Below, piece by piece: positions 10,023-25,413 of a stretch of DNA of 31,766 nt (its first letter is position 1; every line of letters starts with the position of its first letter). Position numbers and translations under genes: made by a program. The stretch spans positions 1 through 31,766 of the IMG/VR virus record IMGVR_UViG_3300005939_000027. The stretch is one strand, 5' to 3'. The notes below the pieces were generated by a model. That model ran no database searches. It was given only the letters and a program-made list of their open reading frames with translations, and was not told the DNA's origin. Origin of the DNA: a virus.

Positions 10023-10635
10023 AAAACTTTCTTAATTTTATTTGAAGTTTTAGAAGTTCTCTCTCTATTTCGGCACGCTTTGTTGGATTACCTTTTGCTA
10101 TACACCAGTCTAATGCCGCACCAAGACTAATTATTCTGTGAAACTCTCTTTCAATTCTTGGCTCGTCTGTGCTTTCTGATAGTTGTGTAACTGATTTACT
10201 TACTGCTACTAAAAGTCCTTCGTCTGAACTATAACTTGGTGTTGGGTAAAGAATTAAAGACCTGCCTATTATATCGTAATAAGCTGGTGTTCCACTATTC
10301 CCTCTAAACTGCTCAAGACTATCTTTTATGTTGGCAGAATCTATTGAAACTAATTTGATATACTTTCCGTTTGAATCTTTTACTTCTACTCTTTCAACCT
10401 CTCTTGCGTCTGTCGGTATAGCATAGTTATCTTGTTCTGCTACTAATGCTGCAGTTCCTATCGGTAGTTCATCTATTCCTTCGTCAAACTGCCAATCAGC
10501 CGCAGAATCCCATATGTCTAAAACAGCAATATCATAATGTATATTAAGATTTCTTTTAATAGCAATGTCTGCATATTGTGCGGACACAGTGTTTGCCAAA
10601 AAAAGTGTATCGGCTTGAAGTTCTGCTAATGTCAT
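9961..10635 (-). CDS. Head-tail connector/adaptor protein
   Basis: A 224-residue protein directly downstream of the capsid gene. The N-terminus (MTLAELQADTLFLANTVSAQYADIAIKRNLNIHYD) is helical. It is followed by a beta segment (VAEQDNYAIPTDAREVERVEV, then YDIIGRSLILYPTPS) that is characteristic of phage head-completion or adaptor proteins with a YxLPxD(x)R-like turn. The C-terminal half is helical and basic (EREFHRIISLGAALDWCIAKGNP, RELLKLQIKLRKFYANRNKD). Position and pattern support a ring protein below the portal. The assignment is to functional class, not to a named orthologue. Confidence 0.75.
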   Translation of the reverse strand: MTLAELQADTLFLANTVSAQYADIAIKRNLNIHYDIAVLDIWDSAADWQFDEGIDELPIGTAALVAEQDNYAIPTDAREVERVEVKDSNGKYIKLVSIDSANIKDSLEQFRGNSGTPAYYDIIGRSLILYPTPSYSSDEGLLVAVSKSVTQLSESTDEPRIEREFHRIISLGAALDWCIAKGNPTKRAEIERELLKLQIKLRKFYANRNKDYDTRIKPAMQNYE

Positions 10636-19666: not shown

Positions 19667-19694
19667 TTGACAAGATATGCGGTTCTGATATTAT
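19667..19694 (+). promoter_or_regulatory. Promoter of structured RNA copy 1
   Basis: TTGACA (19667-19672), 16-bp spacer, TGA followed by TATTAT (19689-19694), an extended -10. The expected first base, about 19701, is exactly the start of the 10-base arm AAGAGGTGCA of the terminal stem. The agreement of promoter and RNA boundary supports both calls. Confidence 0.85.
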
Positions 19695-19700
19695 GTAGTC

Positions 19701-19995
19701 AAGAGGTGCAGCACATACTAGTTAATAAGTGGCAGGGTACTGGCTTGTAGGTTTCCTTACAGCGACAAGTCTGGAATTGACCACTATAAATAAACGCCAA
19801 GCATACTAGTTTGCAGAATTCTAAATAAAGGGGTAAGGTTAAAACCTGAGGTATCACGGGTTCCCGACTCAACGGCTAACCAGACCAATGAGATAGGTGA
19901 TGTACTTAAACTCTACCAAGAGACAATGGCTAATAGAGTTGATAACTTTATTCCCCTAAGGGGTACTGGATTGTCATAACTATATTGCACCTCTT
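19701..19995 (+). ncRNA. Structured noncoding RNA, copy 1 (about 295 nt core)
   Basis: The ends AAGAGGTGCA (19701-19710) and TGCACCTCTT (19986-19995) are perfectly complementary. Inside, AGTGG (19728-19732) pairs with CCACT (19781-19785) around a variable hairpin; a hairpin GCA...TGC near 19801-19814 carries ACTAGT (19805-19810), which can pair with ACTAGT at 19717-19722 as a long-range contact. Further helices: AGGTTAAAACCT near 19835, CGGGTTCCCG near 19857, and AACTCTA...TAGAGTT near 19909-19943. No ORF is convincing. The core matches 25030-25222. No U-run follows the 3' arm, so the RNA may be processed or extend to the terminators at 20596-20665. It does not match tmRNA, and group I intron core motifs were not found. 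Confidence 0.8.
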
Positions 19996-20104
19996 ACAAG
20001 CTTATTAGTAAGTGTCTGCATGTAGTACGAGTGAGTGTATGTGTAGTATCATAATATATATCCCCCTCTCCTGTTCAACTCTCCCTACCCTCCCCCCGTC
20101 TATG
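19996..20104. other. Pyrimidine-rich tract downstream of RNA copy 1
   Basis: No gene. After the RNA's closing stem there is a short hairpin (CTTAC...GTAAG, 19993-20012), then from about 20061 to 20101 an almost purine-free C-rich run (TCCCCCTCTCCTG, CTCTCCCTACCCTCCCCCC). This stands out in an AT-rich genome. It directly precedes the palindrome array. It might be part of a replication origin, a primase or initiator site, or a loading site for a transcription factor. Function unknown. Confidence 0.5.
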
Positions 20105-20359
20105 TGTGGTCCACATTTGTGATTTACATTATGCGAAGTGTGGTCCACATAAAGTATTACCTTTAAGAAGTGTGTTGTTTGATGTTATGCGAAGTATGTG
20201 GTTGTGGGTTAGACAAAATGCTAATACAAGATACATTAAGACTACATTTACATTCATTTATGTGGTTCACATTACTATCTATTGCTTTTAATAGAATAAT
20301 ATCTTTCTTAGCTTAGTCTTTCTCTTCTATATTGTCTATTGTTTAATATGTGGTTCACA
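20105..20359. promoter_or_regulatory. Array of four TGTGGTYCACA palindromes
   Basis: TGTGGTCCACA lies at 20105-20115 and 20139-20149; TGTGGTTCACA at 20261-20271 and 20349-20359. The first two are perfect odd palindromes and the last two have one changed half-site base. A flanking ATGCGAAGT precedes the second and recurs at 20187-20195 next to a half-site ATGTGGT. A fifth perfect copy (TGTGGACCACA, the reverse complement) lies inside the lysozyme gene at 24113-24123. The form is that of dimeric regulator operators or origin iterons. No protein in the window can be assigned as the binder. Confidence 0.8.
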
Positions 20360-20595
20360 TTTCTTTAAGGCGCCGGATTTTTATAATATCATTTAACATT
20401 ATTTAACATCTTATAATACTTTAATTCTATTGTTGGCGTGTTTGCTATACTTTACCTCTTTTCTTACCGATAACATGCTTTTTGAGAATAAGGCATTTTA
20501 TTTATCGTTCTTATTTGCTCTCTAAGGCGTTTATATTCTCTTTTGGCATTGTAGTACCTTGACGGCTTCTGCTTTTGTATAAGTTTTTTTGTTTT
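20360..20595. other. Non-coding AT-rich spacer with one long hairpin
   Basis: No convincing gene. It includes a GGCGCC box near 20370 and a long imperfect hairpin in which CGATAA (20468-20473) pairs with TTATCG (20502-20507) and ATGCTT (20475-20480) pairs with AGGCAT (20491-20496). If the RNA promoter at 19667 reads through, this region would be the tail of a roughly 900-base transcript. Otherwise it is regulatory or origin DNA. Confidence 0.4.
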
Positions 20596-20614
20596 GCTCC
20601 GGTCCGGAGCTTTT
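20596..20614 (+). terminator. Rho-independent terminator 1 before early promoter
   Basis: GCTCCG-GTC-CGGAGC (20596-20610) is a perfect stem followed by TTTTCTCTT. It should stop rightward transcripts from the structured-RNA promoter before the early genes. The GC-rich stem is conspicuous in AT-rich surroundings. Confidence 0.75.
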
Positions 20615-20641
20615 CTCTTATTCTCTTATATTAAATCTATT

Positions 20642-20665
20642 CTCTGTTTAATGACAGAGTTTTTT
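20642..20665 (+). terminator. Rho-independent terminator 2 before early promoter
   Basis: CTCTGT (20642-20647) and ACAGAG (20654-20659) form a perfect 6-bp stem with loop TTAATG, followed by six T. It is in tandem with the terminator at 20596 and only 28 bp before the -35 of the first early promoter, so it insulates that promoter. Confidence 0.85.
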
Positions 20666-20692
20666 CTATTTGCTTGTTTATTGTTTTACCCC

Positions 20693-20721
20693 TTGACAAA
20701 CTTTCAAAAATAATATAGAAT
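20693..20721 (+). promoter_or_regulatory. First early promoter
   Basis: TTGACA (20693-20698), 17 bp, TAGAAT (20716-20721). The expected start is about 20728. The leader carries AAAGGTCG (20735-20742) followed by AATATAAAG, shared with two later leaders. It drives the 67-aa gene at 20776. Confidence 0.8.
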
Positions 20722-20775
20722 TCTAGTATAAGCAAAAGGTCGAATATAAAGCAACATAAAACTAAGTATAAAACT

Positions 20776-20979
20776 ATGAAACTAAAAGAAATCATTTTAG
20801 AATATAGTAAAGAAACAAAAGTTAAAATGCCATTTAATCGAAAGCAGATAGAAAAAGAAGGTTATAATATGACAATATTTTTACTTGAGTTGAAAAAGCG
20901 TTTAGAAAAAGCAGATGATATTAGGGCTAATAATAAAACATTAAAAAACTTTTTCATTGCTTGTGAAAAGTTAATGTAA
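20776..20979 (+). CDS. Early small protein (67 aa)
   Basis: First gene of the rightward arm, under its own strong promoter. The 67-residue basic, helical protein (MKLKEIILEYSKETKVKMPF) has a possible DNA-binding-like pattern: helix, basic turn (NRKQIEKEGYN), helix (TIFLLELKKRLEKADD), then a last helix. This is too weak to assign. First-expressed phage proteins often redirect host functions. There is no SD; the leader ends AAAACTATG. Confidence 0.7.
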   Translation: MKLKEIILEYSKETKVKMPFNRKQIEKEGYNMTIFLLELKKRLEKADDIRANNKTLKNFFIACEKLM

Positions 20980-20984
20980 AGGAC

Positions 20985-21012
20985 CTGACAAACTTTTGTA
21001 TATGTATATACT
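20985..21012 (+). promoter_or_regulatory. Early promoter 2
   Basis: CTGACA (20985-20990), 16 bp, TATACT (21007-21012), just after the 67-aa gene. The leader has AAAGGTCG at 21022-21029, the same motif as in promoters 1 and 3. It serves the gene at 21056. Confidence 0.7.
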
Positions 21013-21055
21013 TAAAGTAGTAAAGGTCGGACATTATAAACAATAGTTTAATAGA

Positions 21056-21283
21056 ATGTATAAACTCTATAAGAGAATAGGAGAAAGCTTTACAGAGGGA
21101 GAGGAGTTGATAGGAGATTTTGAGATCTTCAAAGAAGCACTAGCTTTTGGAGAGAAAAACATCTGCAAATCTGATTTTTATGAGCCGTTATCTGCAACCT
21201 TTACAGACGAGCCAGATTGCTTTTGGTTTTCTGATAACAAAGACCAGCAAGAAAGCTACAAAGGGAGAATAGTAAAGTTTTGA
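21056..21283 (+). CDS. Early small acidic protein (75 aa)
   Basis: A 75-residue acidic protein, MYKLYKRIGESFTEGEELIGDFEIFKEALAFGEKN, ending KGRIVKF. It may be a compact alpha/beta domain. Its own promoter and first-position timing suggest early takeover or host interaction; no family is recognised. The ATG has no SD. Confidence 0.65.
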   Translation: MYKLYKRIGESFTEGEELIGDFEIFKEALAFGEKNICKSDFYEPLSATFTDEPDCFWFSDNKDQQESYKGRIVKF

Positions 21284-21292
21284 CTTTTGCTT

Positions 21293-21346
21293 TTACCTCT
21301 TATGAAAATGGGAGGTAAGGTTGAGAAGTTAAAAGGCCGTACCTTT
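21293..21346 (+). promoter_or_regulatory. Leader hairpins before the 50-aa gene
   Basis: TTACCTC (21293-21299) pairs perfectly with GAGGTAA (21312-21318), hiding an SD-like GGAGGTAA. A second hairpin is AAAGG (21332-21336) with CCTTT (21342-21346) around CCGTA. The block GGAGGTAAGGTTGAGAAGTT followed by AAAAGG resembles GGAGGT...TGAGAAGTAAAAGG at 21935-21963. Neither hairpin has a U-run, so they are not plain terminators. Confidence 0.55.
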
Positions 21347-21368
21347 AAAAATATAATAGTTCAATAAT

Positions 21369-21521
21369 ATGTCCAAAGACATAACAAAAGAAGACTATCT
21401 AAATTATCTTGTAGATTGCAAGAAGTTTAGCAAAATAGAAGCAGAATACAAGTTTAATAAATATGGTCTAAAATGTATTAGCGAGGTGGAATTCTTAGAT
21501 TTTTACAAGTCTATAAAATAA
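21369..21521 (+). CDS. Small protein (50 aa)
   Basis: An ORF of 50 codons, MSKDITKEDYLNYLVDCKKF, with a helical, charged composition and two Cys. The ATG follows AATAAT, the window's usual leader form, and the stop is 4 bp from the next ATG. Unknown function; it is retained because of its tight spacing with the next gene. Confidence 0.6.
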   Translation: MSKDITKEDYLNYLVDCKKFSKIEAEYKFNKYGLKCISEVEFLDFYKSIK

Positions 21522-21525
21522 TAAT

Positions 21526-21687
21526 ATGAGTTATACAAAACAAACAAAACAAAGAAGGTTAGAAGAGAGAGGCGAGGCATTTAAGAAGGTAATGTTTTGG
21601 GTCGGTCTTACTACTTCGGTTTTTGCAATCTATTGTGCGGGATTTTTTATCCTTAGAGCCATAATACTTTTAGCAGAAATCATTTAA
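21526..21687 (+). CDS. Single-pass small membrane protein (53 aa)
   Basis: A 53-residue protein. Residues 1-21 are basic and polar (MSYTKQTKQRRLEERGEAFK). Residues 23-51 form one hydrophobic segment (MFWVGLTTSVFAIYCAGFFI) ending in LLAEII. By charge, the N-terminus should stay in the cytoplasm. It could be a superinfection-exclusion or lysis-related protein, but nothing specific supports either. Confidence 0.65.
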   Translation: MSYTKQTKQRRLEERGEAFKKVMFWVGLTTSVFAIYCAGFFILRAIILLAEII

Positions 21688-21706
21688 TAGTTAATAGTTT
21701 AATAAG

Positions 21707-21928
21707 ATGAATAACAGATATGTTACAAAAGCAAAAAATTTTACGTATGATATTAGTTTTACAGGTCTCAAGGGTTTAAGATGTTCTGTTAATAGAACAG
21801 TTTATGGTCCGGAAGGATATTATATTGCACACATGAGTAACAATTGGATTACTACGATTGACAAAGGAGAAAAGATGATTGAAGCAATCGAGGAATGTGT
21901 ACCATACACAAAATATCCTCTACACTAG
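21707..21928 (+). CDS. Small protein (73 aa)
   Basis: A 73-residue protein, MNNRYVTKAKNFTYDISFTG, with alternating strands (LRCSVNRTVYGPEGYYIAHM) and a final helix (GEKMIEAIEECVP). The likely fold is a small alpha/beta domain. It lies 19 bp after the membrane protein. No family is recognised. Confidence 0.65.
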   Translation: MNNRYVTKAKNFTYDISFTGLKGLRCSVNRTVYGPEGYYIAHMSNNWITTIDKGEKMIEAIEECVPYTKYPLH

Positions 21929-21932
21929 TATC

Positions 21933-21978
21933 GAGGAGGTTGACTTCAATGAGAAGTAAAAGGTTGAAGTATAACTAA
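21933..21978 (+). promoter_or_regulatory. Leader element with SD, 9-codon ORF and hairpin
   Basis: GAGGAGGT (21933-21940) lies about 9 bp before an ATG (21949) that opens MRSKRLKYN and stops at 21978. ACTTCAA (21943-21949) pairs perfectly with TTGAAGT (21964-21970), so the hairpin overlaps the mini-ORF's start. A short translated leader with a hairpin is the form of a translational attenuator. The following gene starts at 21988. This is speculative, but it is one of few strong SDs outside the 28.6-30.8 kb cassette. Confidence 0.4.
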
Positions 21979-21987
21979 ATAAATATT

Positions 21988-22209
21988 ATGATATATCAGC
22001 TTAATCGCCAGGAATTAAAGGCAAAAAAAGCAAGTGAATTTAAAGAAGGAGATGTTATTAAAACAGGGAGATATTATATTTTTATTAAATATGGTAAATA
22101 TGACACACCTGCTTTATGTTCTTATCACGAAAGAGATAACTTTTCTCCTTGTGGTTGTACTCCAGGAACCGACAGACCTTATTATATTGATAATTTTTTA
22201 AACAACTAA
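21988..22209 (+). CDS. Small protein with Cys pair (73 aa)
   Basis: A 73-residue protein, MIYQLNRQELKAKKASEFKEGDVIKTGRYYIFIKY, whose EFKEGDVI segment suggests a small beta-barrel. A later CSYHERDNFSPCGCTPG cluster could bind metal. The N-terminal half resembles SH3/KOW-like small domains in pattern only. Function unknown. Confidence 0.65.
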   Translation: MIYQLNRQELKAKKASEFKEGDVIKTGRYYIFIKYGKYDTPALCSYHERDNFSPCGCTPGTDRPYYIDNFLNN

Positions 22210-22231
22210 AAAATATGACTATTAGAAACAC

Positions 22232-22259
22232 TTGACAAATTATAGAAAAGGTATATACT
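22232..22259 (+). promoter_or_regulatory. Early promoter 3
   Basis: TTGACA (22232-22237), 16 bp, TATACT (22254-22259). The segment GTATATACTTAA is shared with promoter 2, and the leader carries AAAGGTCG at 22272-22279 followed by AATGTAAAG. It serves the 160-aa gene. Confidence 0.85.
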
Positions 22260-22299
22260 TAAGTTATAAATAAAGGTCGAATGTAAAGTTAATTAAACT

Positions 22300-22782
22300 A
22301 TGCAATTTAAAATAGGAGATAAAGTGAGGTGTTATTGTACAGATGGAGGAAGGCATGGTGTAACAGGAACTGTATCAAAAATAAAACAAGACAGATACAT
22401 TTTTTGTGATGATTGGAGTGATGGTCTATTAGCATTTATTTTGTGCGATGATTTAGAAATAGAAGAGTTATATAGTCGGCACACTATAAAATATGATAAA
22501 GGTGTACATTTCTGCACAGAATGTGGAAAAATAATACCAGGGAAATTAGTTGGTGCAGAGAATTACAAAAAAGTAGTTTGTATAGGAACGGAGCTGATTT
22601 CAATCTGTCCTTATTCCAAATTCAGTGCAAAAACTGGGAAAAGACAATATGTATATAAATATCGTTGTTCTAATTACAAAATCTTCAGCTCACATGCTAA
22701 TTTTTTGGTAGATGATGTAGTTACATTGAATAATTGGGGTGATGAGTTGTGTGATTGCATACATTATGGAAATTGGATTTAA
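22300..22782 (+). CDS. Cys-rich protein with SH3/KOW-like N-terminus (160 aa)
   Basis: The N-terminal part (MQFKIGDKVRCYCTDGGRHGVTGTVSKIKQD) has the GDKVR...GVTGTV spacing of a KOW/SH3-like barrel, as found in proteins that bind RNA polymerase or ribosomes. The middle has CTEC around residue 72 and a later CPYSKFSAKTGKRQYVYKYRC that may form a zinc site. The C-terminus repeats Cys (ELCDCIHYGNW). It could modulate transcription; this is inference from pattern only. Confidence 0.6.
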   Translation: MQFKIGDKVRCYCTDGGRHGVTGTVSKIKQDRYIFCDDWSDGLLAFILCDDLEIEELYSRHTIKYDKGVHFCTECGKIIPGKLVGAENYKKVVCIGTELISICPYSKFSAKTGKRQYVYKYRCSNYKIFSSHANFLVDDVVTLNNWGDELCDCIHYGNWI

Positions 22783-22812
22783 TAACTTAGGAAATGGCTA
22801 TAACTTTGAAAT

Positions 22813-23076
22813 ATGAAACTAAAAGAAATAGAAAAATTGGCTGAAAGTAATAAGCATCTATCTTCTTGGGAAATTAAGCAGGATATTTTGGACACTGAAG
22901 TCGAAATTGTTAACATGGAAATAGAAGCCAAGCATCTTGCCACTACTCCAATGGGAATGCGAGAAGCAAGATGGAATCATATGAGAGCTGACGCAAGAGA
23001 ATCTGGAATAAAAAATAGAAAGAAATTCATAGAGCAATTAAAGGCAATTTTAAGTTACAGAGAAAATTTCAACTAA
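22813..23076 (+). CDS. Small helical protein (87 aa)
   Basis: An 87-residue, charged, almost all-helical protein (MKLKEIEKLAESNKHLSSWEIKQDILDTEVEIVNMEIEA; later KNRKKFIEQLKAILSYRENF), likely a coiled coil. It is 1 bp from the next ATG, so the two are co-translated. Unknown function. Confidence 0.65.
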   Translation: MKLKEIEKLAESNKHLSSWEIKQDILDTEVEIVNMEIEAKHLATTPMGMREARWNHMRADARESGIKNRKKFIEQLKAILSYRENFN

Positions 23077-23077
23077 T

Positions 23078-23320
23078 ATGAAAACAAAAAAGGAAATAAG
23101 ACAACAAATAGCCGGGACAATACAATTTGCAATGTATTGTAAAAGAAATAATGCTGATTTAGATTTTGAGAAATTAAGCTACGAAAAAGCTGACCAAATC
23201 CTAAAATTATTCTCCCAACAAAAAAAAGAAATAGCGGAAGATGTAGAAAATATGAGAGCTAAAGCACATAATGGAAAAGATGTTTATAACGATTTGATAA
23301 AACTTCAAAAAAAATTATAA
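23078..23320 (+). CDS. Small charged helical protein (80 aa)
   Basis: An 80-residue protein, MKTKKEIRQQIAGTIQFAMY, with helices and a C-terminal basic end (NGKDVYNDLIKLQKKL). It follows the previous gene by 1 bp and precedes the next by 4 bp, forming a tight four-gene run to 23728. No domain is recognised. Confidence 0.65.
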   Translation: MKTKKEIRQQIAGTIQFAMYCKRNNADLDFEKLSYEKADQILKLFSQQKKEIAEDVENMRAKAHNGKDVYNDLIKLQKKL

Positions 23321-23324
23321 AACT

Positions 23325-23552
23325 ATGATATACGAAAAACAAGGGGAACTTTATTGCGAGTGTACTTGCGAGGACTTTATCTATCTTGATAACGAGATGG
23401 AAGAAGCAGAAGGCAATATCTATCTTATACAATGCGAGGAGTGCGGGGAGACTTGTCTTTATGACGAAGTACCTGACGAAGACGAGTATCAACACGAGTT
23501 GGACATATTACACACTGACGATTTTTATAGACATAATAAGCATTTACTATAA
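23325..23552 (+). CDS. Small acidic zinc-ribbon-like protein (75 aa)
   Basis: A very acidic 75-residue protein. CECTCEDFIYLDNEMEEAEG and CEECGETCLYDEVPDEDEY contain CxC and CxxC pairs that could form a zinc ribbon. Small acidic ribbon proteins in phages often bind host polymerases or nucleases; no specific partner is indicated. Leader lacks SD. Confidence 0.6.
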   Translation: MIYEKQGELYCECTCEDFIYLDNEMEEAEGNIYLIQCEECGETCLYDEVPDEDEYQHELDILHTDDFYRHNKHLL

Positions 23553-23557
23553 ACAAT

Positions 23558-23728
23558 ATGAAACTGACTAAAAAAGAAATCCTTACAGAAGCAATTAAAG
23601 ACAGCAGAAAGAGTCGTTATCCTCTAAGTCTGTCCGCTGTGGCAGAAGGCATTGAGAACGCTTTTAGTTGCGAGGAACTGCGTATTTTGTGCTTAAAATT
23701 GAAAGAATATGACGATGTTAGAAGGTAA
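23558..23728 (+). CDS. Small helical protein (56 aa)
   Basis: A 56-codon frame, MKLTKKEILTEAIKDSRKSR, ending EYDDVRR. The start MKLTKKEI resembles the 87- and 67-aa proteins (MKLKEI), as does the helical charge pattern; this may be distant kinship or bias. It ends the run of tightly spaced small genes; a strong promoter begins 17 bp after its stop. Confidence 0.55.
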   Translation: MKLTKKEILTEAIKDSRKSRYPLSLSAVAEGIENAFSCEELRILCLKLKEYDDVRR

Positions 23729-23744
23729 AAACCGAGATAAAAAG

Positions 23745-23773
23745 TTGACATATTCTAATAGTTTTGCTAAAAT
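23745..23773 (+). promoter_or_regulatory. Promoter immediately followed by a terminator
   Basis: TTGACA (23745-23750), 17 bp, extended -10 TGC-TAAAAT (23768-23773). Transcription should start near 23780, at the foot of the hairpin at 23783-23804. The next gene is the lysozyme-like gene at 23943. Confidence 0.85.
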
Positions 23774-23782
23774 GAAAAAACA

Positions 23783-23810
23783 GGGCTTGAACTTTTTTGA
23801 GTCCTTTTTT
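23783..23810 (+). terminator. Terminator/attenuator just after the lysozyme promoter
   Basis: GGGCTT (23783-23788) pairs with GAGTCC (23799-23804), including two G-U pairs, and six T follow. An A-run upstream can lengthen the stem. It would end the transcript after about 30 nt unless bypassed, so it may delay lysozyme expression. The stem is weak, so partial readthrough is likely. Confidence 0.65.
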
Positions 23811-23880
23811 ATTAACTAACTATATTTATTAACTAACTATTTAATTTATTGAACAGGTCAATTTACTAACTAATTAACTA
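23811..23880 (+). repeat. ATTAACTAACTAT direct repeats in the lysozyme leader
   Basis: ATTAACTAACTAT occurs at 23811-23823 and 23828-23840, and variants ACTAACTAATTAACTAATTA follow at about 23865-23884. The leader between the attenuator and the lysozyme ATG is therefore built of short tandem units around GAACAGGTCAATTTACT. These could be regulator-binding or simply unstructured RNA. There is no ORF in this gap. Confidence 0.5.
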
Positions 23881-23942
23881 ATTATTTTTAGAAGTTCCAC
23901 CACAGATAAACTTTCAGACTTGCAAGCCAAGAGTGGCAAACT

Positions 23943-24419
23943 ATGAAAAAAATAATCTTATTATCCTTTCTTTTAATCTCAGTAGTTTTGCTTTATAGGA
24001 CTGTGTTTAGCGAGGACGAAGAACCTATAAACTACTACAATGAAAGTGATATGTATGTCTACGCAGTAAGTCCGCCTTATTTTATTAAAAGCCAAACGCT
24101 AGGCAATAAAAATGTGGACCACATAATAGACGCTTACTATAATATAATAGCCCAATATGATTGGAACACAGACATTGCTTATGCGATTATGCTCTGTGAG
24201 AGCTCAGGCGATAGCGATGCTCATAACCTTACAGGAAGAACAAGGGATAACTCTCACGGACTATTTCAGATTAACCTTTATGGAAACCTTGTTAACAGCA
24301 GACCGACAGCAGATTGGCTGAGGATTCCAGCTAATAACATTTCCTTTGCTTTCTCATTATATGAAGCGAGAGGTTGGAAGCCGTGGAATAACTGCTATAA
24401 AGAGGTAAAAAGCCGTTAG
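23943..24419 (+). CDS. Membrane-anchored lysozyme/transglycosylase-like protein
   Basis: A 158-residue protein. Residues 4-18 (IILLSFLLISVVLLY) form a signal-anchor or uncleaved signal segment. The catalytic domain has AIMLCESSGDSDAHN with Glu86 as the expected general acid, then SHGLFQINLYGN (104-115), the usual S-x-GL-x-QI(N) motif of lytic transglycosylase/lysozyme folds, and a C-terminal AFSLYEARGWKPWNNC. It should cut peptidoglycan, as an endolysin with a signal-arrest-release-type anchor or as an entry/virion enzyme. It lies in the early arm rather than next to a holin. A TGTGGACCACA palindrome at 24113-24123 lies within the gene. Confidence 0.82.
   Translation: MKKIILLSFLLISVVLLYRTVFSEDEEPINYYNESDMYVYAVSPPYFIKSQTLGNKNVDHIIDAYYNIIAQYDWNTDIAYAIMLCESSGDSDAHNLTGRTRDNSHGLFQINLYGNLVNSRPTADWLRIPANNISFAFSLYEARGWKPWNNCYKEVKSR
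24113..24123. promoter_or_regulatory. Palindrome TGTGGACCACA inside the lysozyme gene
   Basis: A perfect copy of the element found four times at 20105-20359 (as the reverse complement), here encoding Asn-Val-Asp-His. An intragenic site for the same regulator would let it act as a roadblock on lysozyme transcription. A chance match to an 11-bp word in 32 kb is not excluded. Confidence 0.5.
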
Positions 24420-24440
24420 AAGCGAAGTTTAGCGACAAGG

Positions 24441-24462
24441 AGACCATGCAAATGGTCTTTTT
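24441..24462 (+). terminator. Rho-independent terminator after lysozyme gene
   Basis: AGACCAT (24441-24447), GCAA tetraloop, ATGGTCT (24452-24458), T-run to 24462. The loop is of the GNRA class. It should end the lysozyme transcript 22 bp after the stop. Confidence 0.9.
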
Positions 24463-24476
24463 GGTTGGTATAGCAT

Positions 24477-24505
24477 TTGACTTTTATTCTGTTATCTGAT
24501 ATTAT
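24477..24505 (+). promoter_or_regulatory. Promoter for the 126-aa gene
   Basis: TTGACT (24477-24482), 17 bp, extended -10 TGA-TATTAT (24500-24505). Expected start about 24512, so only ATGs after this can be used. Confidence 0.8.
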
Positions 24506-24533
24506 GTTTTCAAGGTTTAATAAAGTTAATAAT

Positions 24534-24914
24534 ATGATAATACCAGAGCTAAAAAAATATCCTTTAAGGTATCGTAAGATAGGAGGGTATAAATACTACT
24601 TCCCGAGACGAGGAGAGAGTTTAATACCACCGAGAATACTTCTTTTAATTTTTGGAACAGGGAATACTTTAGACTGGAAAGCAAAAACTCTGTCAGAAAA
24701 GGAAAGATATTATGAAAAGGTAATCCGTTGTAAGAGAAGGTATCCTGTTTGGAAAGTCTGTGAGTGTGAATTAGAACTTGTATTTATTGAGAAGAGTAGT
24801 CAGTTAAAGAAGCGATGCGAGTTCTGTGCTCATTCCCGCATTTCAGCAGGAAGTTATTCCGCTGGGAATTCTCAAATTAAGACTAAAAACACGAAAACGC
24901 TTGACAAGATTTGA
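24534..24914 (+). CDS. Unknown protein (126 aa) with C-terminal Cys cluster
   Basis: The ATG at 24534 is chosen because the promoter's start site (about 24512) rules out upstream ATGs, and because it follows AATAAT as elsewhere. The protein (MIIPELKKYPLRYRKIGGYK) is basic. CKRRYPVWKVCECELELVFI and KKRCEFCAHSRISAGSY contain Cys pairs that could bind zinc. It resembles no family I can name. The last codons (TLDKI) are made by the -35 box of the next promoter. Confidence 0.6.
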   Translation: MIIPELKKYPLRYRKIGGYKYYFPRRGESLIPPRILLLIFGTGNTLDWKAKTLSEKERYYEKVIRCKRRYPVWKVCECELELVFIEKSSQLKKRCEFCAHSRISAGSYSAGNSQIKTKNTKTLDKI

Positions 24915-24929
24915 TGTTTCTGATATATT
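24901..24929 (+). promoter_or_regulatory. Strong promoter upstream of a hairpin pair
   Basis: TTGACA (24901-24906), 17 bp, extended -10 TGA-TATATT (24924-24929). It overlaps the final codons and stop of the 126-aa gene. The start is expected near 24936, and the transcript meets a terminator about 70 nt later. Confidence 0.85.
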
Positions 24930-24963
24930 GGTTTTGTTCTTTAAAACAACATTAAACAATCGT

Positions 24964-25012
24964 CCATGACCACAGATAACGGCATCTACTGTCATGGAGG
25001 GTGCCGTTTTCT
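24964..25012 (+). terminator. Terminator with a mutually exclusive alternative hairpin
   Basis: AACGGCATCT (24978-24987) pairs with GGGTGCCGTT (24999-25008), two G-U pairs included, followed by a T-rich run: a strong terminator. CCATGAC (24964-24970) pairs perfectly with GTCATGG (24991-24997), which lies in the terminator's loop, so the two form alternative folds or a strained pseudoknot. This is the layout of a regulated attenuator, or of a small stable RNA of about 80 nt. Confidence 0.8.
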
Positions 25013-25029
25013 GTTTTATCATACTTTAT

Positions 25030-25222
25030 TATACTAGATATAATTGTGGCAGGGAGGGTAGACTTTCTATATTTATTTGACCACATTAAATAAAAGCCCC
25101 AGCATTCTAGTTATGCAGGAATAGATACTTGCAATGCCTGTGCTAGTAGGGTTAAATTACTAGCCAGAGTTGAGGTCCTAAAAAAGAAGCGGTAGCAGTG
25201 AGCCATTTCGCTGTCGTTTTTT
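25030..25222 (+). ncRNA. Structured noncoding RNA, copy 2 (about 190 nt)
   Basis: Shares with copy 1, in order: ATACTAG, TAA, GTGGCAGGG, TTGACCAC, AAATAAA, GCC, then the AGCAT..CTAGTT..TGCAG hairpin. Helix TGTGG (25045-25049) pairs with CCACA (25081-25085). Hairpin GCAT/ATGC (25102-25105 with 25113-25116) has a loop whose TCTAGT (25106-25111) can pair with ACTAGA (25033-25038). A copy-specific hairpin is GCTAGTA (25142-25148) with TACTAGC (25158-25164). It ends in a terminator: GCAGTGA (25195-25201) with TCGCTGT (25208-25214), then CG and six T. No own -35 is visible; it may be reached only by readthrough of the attenuator. Confidence 0.8.
25195..25222 (+). terminator. Terminator of RNA copy 2
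   Basis: GCAGTGA-GCCATT-TCGCTGT, a 7-bp stem with G-U pairs, is followed by CG and six T (25217-25222). It sets the 3' end of the second structured RNA. Confidence 0.8.
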
Positions 25223-25413
25223 CTACACATTTTTATGAGTAGTTTTTTGAGGAAATGAGGTATAATCTCTCCCAGAGACAAGGGAACAAAGAGATTTATT
25301 TAATAACCTTATGGGGGATTAACTAACCCATTACCTGTGATGGACTTGAATATCAAACAGACTTGATGAGTAAGAAAGAGTTCGTTGGCGGTCTGAAGAA
25401 ATAAATACGCTGG
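25223..25413 (+). other. Non-coding gap before the NinG-like gene
   Basis: No convincing ORF. Contains a TATAAT (25261-25266) without a good -35, and a hairpin in which ATGGG near 25312 pairs with CCCAT near 25328. A 12-codon frame (MSKKEFVGGLKK) at about 25366 lacks supporting signals. Possibly a leader of an upstream transcript. Confidence 0.35.

Follow-up and report, generated by a model that had tools for sequence, protein, structure and literature searches.

Two copies of a candidate pseudoknotted RNA in one phage genome and a homologue in a second phage

Phage HK022 carries two related structured RNAs, the put RNAs, one of them near the start of an early transcript, and put RNA modifies RNA polymerase. 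Other structured noncoding RNAs with pseudoknots, GOLLD and ROOL, occur in phages and prophages; a ROOL example is 659 nt long, and lengths above 800 nt are common among GOLLDs, which often lie near tRNA islands (PMC12286853). Here we describe an element present twice in a virus record of 31,766 bases (the window; GC 35.6%, without an end repeat) and once in a different phage. Like GOLLD and ROOL, it appears to be a structured phage RNA with a pseudoknot, but it measures 289-295 nt across the three sequences as against ~660 to >800 nt, the Rfam covariance models of GOLLD and ROOL do not match it, and ARAGORN found no tRNA or tmRNA in the window or in G001, tRNA neighbours being frequent rather than invariable for those classes. 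As with put, a single phage has a related pair of candidate structured RNAs, and one of the pair lies close to where an early transcript would start; the element differs in having a conserved 3' domain past a terminator-like hairpin and no evident dependent downstream gene.

The left arm of the window (minus strand) carries genes for tail, capsid, portal-like, terminase and sugar modification proteins, and the right arm (plus strand) small early genes followed by those for an SLT lysozyme, NinG, ERF and a PDDEXK exonuclease. Copy 1 sits where the two arms diverge and copy 2 directly upstream of NinG; a search for relatives of the gene upstream of copy 2 returned none. According to the original prediction the copies share an ordered set of sequence blocks, and these are indeed present in the claimed order at 19715-19820 and 25031-25122, with the same CCAC-to-GCC spacing (NNN AAATAAA N GCC). 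Both copies have a core of ~90 nt that runs through ACTAG[W], GTGGCAGGG, a variable hairpin, TTGACCAC, AAATAAA, GCC and a hairpin with a [W]CTAG[W] loop (Table 1). The pattern GTGGCAGGN{17,47}TGACCACN{2,6}AAATAAA occurs in the window at these two places only, which none of 100 shuffles equals, and TTGACCACNNNAAATAAANGCC, with up to 3 mismatches allowed, likewise finds only copies 1 and 2 within the window. By blastn, the only significant match to copy 1 elsewhere in the window is 25077-25118, with 83% identity over 42 nt and an E of 5e-5.

Table 1 Positions in the window of the two copies and of their predicted parts.
Feature	Position	Strand	Remark
Copy 1 unit, 295 nt	19701..19995	+	Bounded by a perfect 10-bp end stem
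Copy 1 predicted pseudoknot 5' strand, ACTAGT	19717..19722	+	
Copy 1 stem P2, A-GTGG-CAG ... TTG-(A)-CCAC-T	19728..19785	+	Variable apical hairpin
Copy 1 invariant AAATAAA N GCC	19788..19798	+	
Copy 1 hairpin P3	19801..19814	+	Loop ACTAGT (19805-19810), predicted pseudoknot 3' strand
Copy 1 3' hairpin, AACTCT A CCA AGAGACAA TGG CTAAT AGAGTT	19909..19940	+	
Promoter-like site before copy 2, TTGACA-17-TATATT	24901..24929	+	11/12 consensus matches
Copy 2 unit, 292 nt	25030..25321	+	Extent from alignment to L154:16514-16802
Copy 2 predicted pseudoknot 5' strand, ACTAGA	25033..25038	+	
Copy 2 stem P2	25045..25085	+	
Copy 2 invariant AAATAAA N GCC	25088..25098	+	
Copy 2 hairpin P3	25102..25116	+	Loop TCTAGT (25106-25111), predicted pseudoknot 3' strand
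Terminator-like hairpin, AAAAAAGAAGCGGTAGCAGTG...CATTTCGCTGTCGTTTTTT	25180..25222	+	L136 has a near-identical hairpin; copy 1 lacks it
Hairpin H4, CTAC/GTAG	25223..25242	+	L136 CCAA/TTGG; copy 1 CTA/TAG only
Copy 2 3' hairpin, ATCTCT CCC AGAGACAA GGG ... AGAGAT	25265..25295	+	

An IMG/VR scan for a pattern drawn from the core's 3' half identified an independent homologue in contig 3300027784_000002 (L136), which belongs to another phage with a gpA-type terminase and an SU10-type portal. Its terminase, portal and capsid families differ from those of the window phage, and the proteins common to both, NinG (59%), HNH (48%), HTH (37%) and SLT (36%), are only ~36-59% identical. The pattern scan also gave a sister contig (L001/L003) near-identical to the window (33 mismatches in 20,143 bases), in which copy 1 is unchanged by inspection; a TerL search returned two near-identical contigs and one 25% relative. 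Copy 2 aligns to L136 with 70% identity across 306 alignment columns (E 2.1e-22) and the flanks do not align, giving sharp edges on both sides, while copy 1 matches the L136 contig in two blastn pieces, 19776-19819 and 19905-19942. From these alignments the unit is ~290 nt in each case. Copy 2 had been predicted to end at a terminator-like hairpin (25195-25214 plus T6); since similarity to L136 runs on to ~25321, this 'terminator' at 25222 lies inside the unit. The perfect 10-bp stem that closes copy 1 is real (19701-19710 with 19986-19995), a perfect helix of at least 10 bp between equivalent segments arising in 55 of 20,000 random placements, but as a feature shared by the copies it did not hold up: copy 2 has none of note, and the corresponding position in L136 offers 7 Watson-Crick pairs and one G-T, where 7 bp arises by chance in ~7% of placements. 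That the closing stem is not conserved counts against a shared structured RNA.

Of the other two sequences, L136 is the nearer to copy 2, an indication that the duplication is older than the split between the phages, or that copy 1 has been evolving faster; no second copy was found in the L136 contig with search filters off. The presence of two copies in the window and a third in a different phage, with sharp homology edges, could also reflect a small mobile repeat without coding function, maintained by transposition alone. We regard this as very improbable, given that the core blocks and pairings were kept while the rest of copy 1 diverged, that no transposase was recognised among the scanned proteins, and that copy 2 and L136 are similarly placed near the recombination module.

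All three sequences follow the order of a putative pseudoknot core, a variable middle with a hairpin, and a 3' hairpin with a AGAGANAA loop; in copy 2 and L136 the last is preceded by a nearly identical terminator-like hairpin and by a small hairpin with T6 after it. As modelled, the core fits an H-type pseudoknot in which the loop of P3 forms base pairs with the 5' ACTAG[W] strand. The strand and loop read ACTAGT/ACTAGT in copy 1, ACTAGA/TCTAGT in copy 2 and TCTAGA/TCTAGA in L136, so that both outer pseudoknot pairs have changed on both sides. Further matched changes are seen at the base of P2 (A-U to U-A) and in the 3' hairpin (A-U to U-A and A-U to C-G). Altogether, compensatory changes between independent homologues, as expected of a structured RNA, are found at 8 of the 31 proposed pairs in the three sequences, with 2 of 93 cells unpaired. 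Some of the helices were picked by eye, with knowledge of the sequences, and H4, whose left strands were paired by hand because MAFFT offsets them, accounts for three of the eight double-changed pairs. On unadjusted MAFFT alignments of copy 2 and L136, RNAalifold gives a z of about -3.4, reached by none of 300 shuffles, and a covariance model built from copy 2 and L136 only recovers the held-out copy 1 with E 4.2e-9, the next match having E 0.3. By minimum free energy of the single sequences alone, the full copy 2 unit shows modestly unusual stability (z -2.05), copy 1 does not (z -0.5) and L136 folds no better than its shuffles (z +0.5). The alignment gaps (lengths 8, 6, 8, 2, 2, 2) break the reading frame, and no protein frame is conserved. 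We rejected a protein-coding reading of the short open frames over the 3' hairpin, because copy 1 and L136 differ in the frame that these take with respect to the motif.

The same loops leave room for a variant of the RNA reading in which the CTAG loops pair between molecules, as a kissing dimer, instead of forming an intramolecular pseudoknot. In copy 1 (ACTAGT) and L136 (TCTAGA) the loop sequence is palindromic over 6 nt, and palindrome-switching loops support dimers in GOLLD and OLE (PMC12286853). The copy 2 loop TCTAGT, however, is not a 6-nt palindrome, yet it can pair along its whole length with the copy 2 5' strand ACTAGA, making the dimer a decidedly unlikely variant.

A rather doubtful alternative to an RNA is an element acting at the DNA level, for instance a site for recombination or packaging, or a portion of a replication origin, that folds as single-stranded DNA. 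Copy 1 adjoins ~0.7 kb of apparently noncoding DNA (20000-20690) with four TGTGGNNCACA palindromes at 20105-20359, and the cumulative GC skew has its minimum near 20 kb, but the turn in skew coincides with divergent transcription and no iteron-like repeats were noticed beside copy 2. For the full copy 2/L136 alignment the plus strand also gives the better fold signal, the minus strand having a z of -2.0 that 8 of 300 shuffles reach. Between the strands there is little difference in score for the 3' part (A5) or for the core on its own (A9). Finally, one proposed pair is G-U in all three sequences and another changes from G-C to G-U in L136, which also counts against a DNA-level element.

Several observations concern the surrounding region. 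The window holds five operator-like TGTGGNNCACA sites, at 20105-20359 and 24113 (8 strand matches vs 0.14 expected), located in the noncoding region after copy 1 and, for one, inside the lysozyme gene; they are also present in the sister contig. The stretch 20000-20690, which lacks a convincing gene, contains a tract rich in C and T near 20060 as well as terminator-like hairpins at 20596 and 20642, and is possibly a regulatory or origin region. A motif, AAAGGTCGNA, lies just 3' of several early promoters in both phages (window 20735, 21022 and 22272; L154 16900) as a shared leader motif. Upstream of the SLT lysozyme gene, window 23748-23813 has a TTGACA promoter and, within ~45 nt, a terminator-like hairpin, a layout reminiscent of the lambda late promoter.

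Searches against known RNA classes support the view that the element is unrecognised. No Rfam covariance model gave a family match, the only weak match being GIR1 at 11.2 bits vs a cut-off of 100, and the group I intron models gave none up to E 10. The element is similar in size to a group I intron, CAGAGACAA in its 3' loop resembles the R segment, and copy 1 has by inspection a possible P7-like pairing (GACAAT/ATTGTC), but this pairing is missing in copy 2 and L136. By the tests run there is no match to a known intron or repeat class, and the predicted conserved, unrecognised structured RNA is supported by the homologue in a different phage, the matched pair changes and the absence of an Rfam match. 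The copy 2 unit has no blastn match in GenBank phages; that of L136 has a single one there (31 nt, E 0.1) and none in PLSDB plasmids. A broader IMG/VR pattern scan yielded no further true homologue, all its new matches being rejected as chance; L005-L007 were also judged to be chance matches. In bacterial genome contigs nearly all the matches listed were a ribosomal protein L35 reading frame of Comamonadaceae and were likewise rejected. Model R1 had no match among 400 genomes from the phylum of G003 (Chloroflexi-titled) or among 395 from that of G004 (Saprospiraceae-titled), negatives that would be informative only for a phylum known to include the host. Nothing usable came from a literature search on put RNA and on the phage RNAs of Patescibacteria.

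Upstream of each of the three copies is a promoter-like site that matches the consensus at 11-12 of 12 bases, suggesting that each copy is transcribed. That of copy 1, as originally proposed, is real (TTGACA-16-TATTAT, 19667..19694, plus strand, 11/12 matches) and lies 7 nt from the unit, the distance being ~100-160 nt for copy 2 and L136. A 'TATAAT' in the linker of copy 2 and L136 was rejected as a promoter, as its start would fall downstream of the pseudoknot strand. The main difficulties for this view are terminator-like hairpins: one between promoter and unit in L136 (10242-10268), to which an inverted repeat in the copy 2 leader is similar, and the internal one, which, if working, should cut off the 3' domain. 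The copy 2 leader (24958-25012) has interleaved inverted repeats, CCATGAC/GTCATGG and ACGGCA/TGCCGT, then a T-rich stretch, and could form alternative hairpins or a pseudoknot. In L136 a 41-codon open frame (10131-10256), between promoter and RNA unit, ends in the terminator-like hairpin.

The elements might instead control transcription in cis, with the core as a sensor or an RNA-polymerase-modifying element and the hairpin plus T6 as an attenuator toward the recombination genes. The core-then-terminator layout of copy 2 and L136, the NinG or Gp157/PDDEXK genes downstream of both, and the position of copy 1 at the start of the rightward region directly after a promoter would all suit this. 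Nevertheless, the next genes have TTGACA promoter-like sites of their own (window 25414 and 20693; L136 10620), the terminator is followed by a 3' domain that is itself conserved, and copy 1 lacks such a terminator and is ~780 nt from the first convincing ORF. We consider cis control unlikely, and because each following gene has its own promoter-like site we prefer action in trans.

The reading we favour, and hold to be somewhat probable, is that copies 1 and 2 are paralogues of one structured phage RNA, ~290 nt long, forming noncoding units of their own on the plus strand and acting in trans. Each would be transcribed from a sigma-70-type promoter. The 5' domain would fold into an H-type pseudoknot between the ACTAG[W] strand and the 7-nt P3 loop, enclosing P2 and the A-rich AAATAAA-N-GCC strand; the 3' domain would be a hairpin presenting the conserved AGAGANAA loop, with a variable middle between them. 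Through the pseudoknot and this loop, the RNA may bind a phage or host partner. We see about an even chance that it represents an undescribed class of pseudoknotted phage noncoding RNA, with two paralogous genes in one phage, that is found in phages with different head modules and acts in trans during infection. Since three sequences from two phage lineages are at hand, it is a strong candidate rather than an established class. Few large structured RNAs of phages are described and their function is mostly obscure, and the present element is compact, with a clear and testable candidate pseudoknot. Because phages that differ in their structural modules have both conserved it, selection seems to act on the RNA and not on a neighbouring protein. 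Most likely the element belongs to a new and rare family of phage RNAs that acts as RNA.
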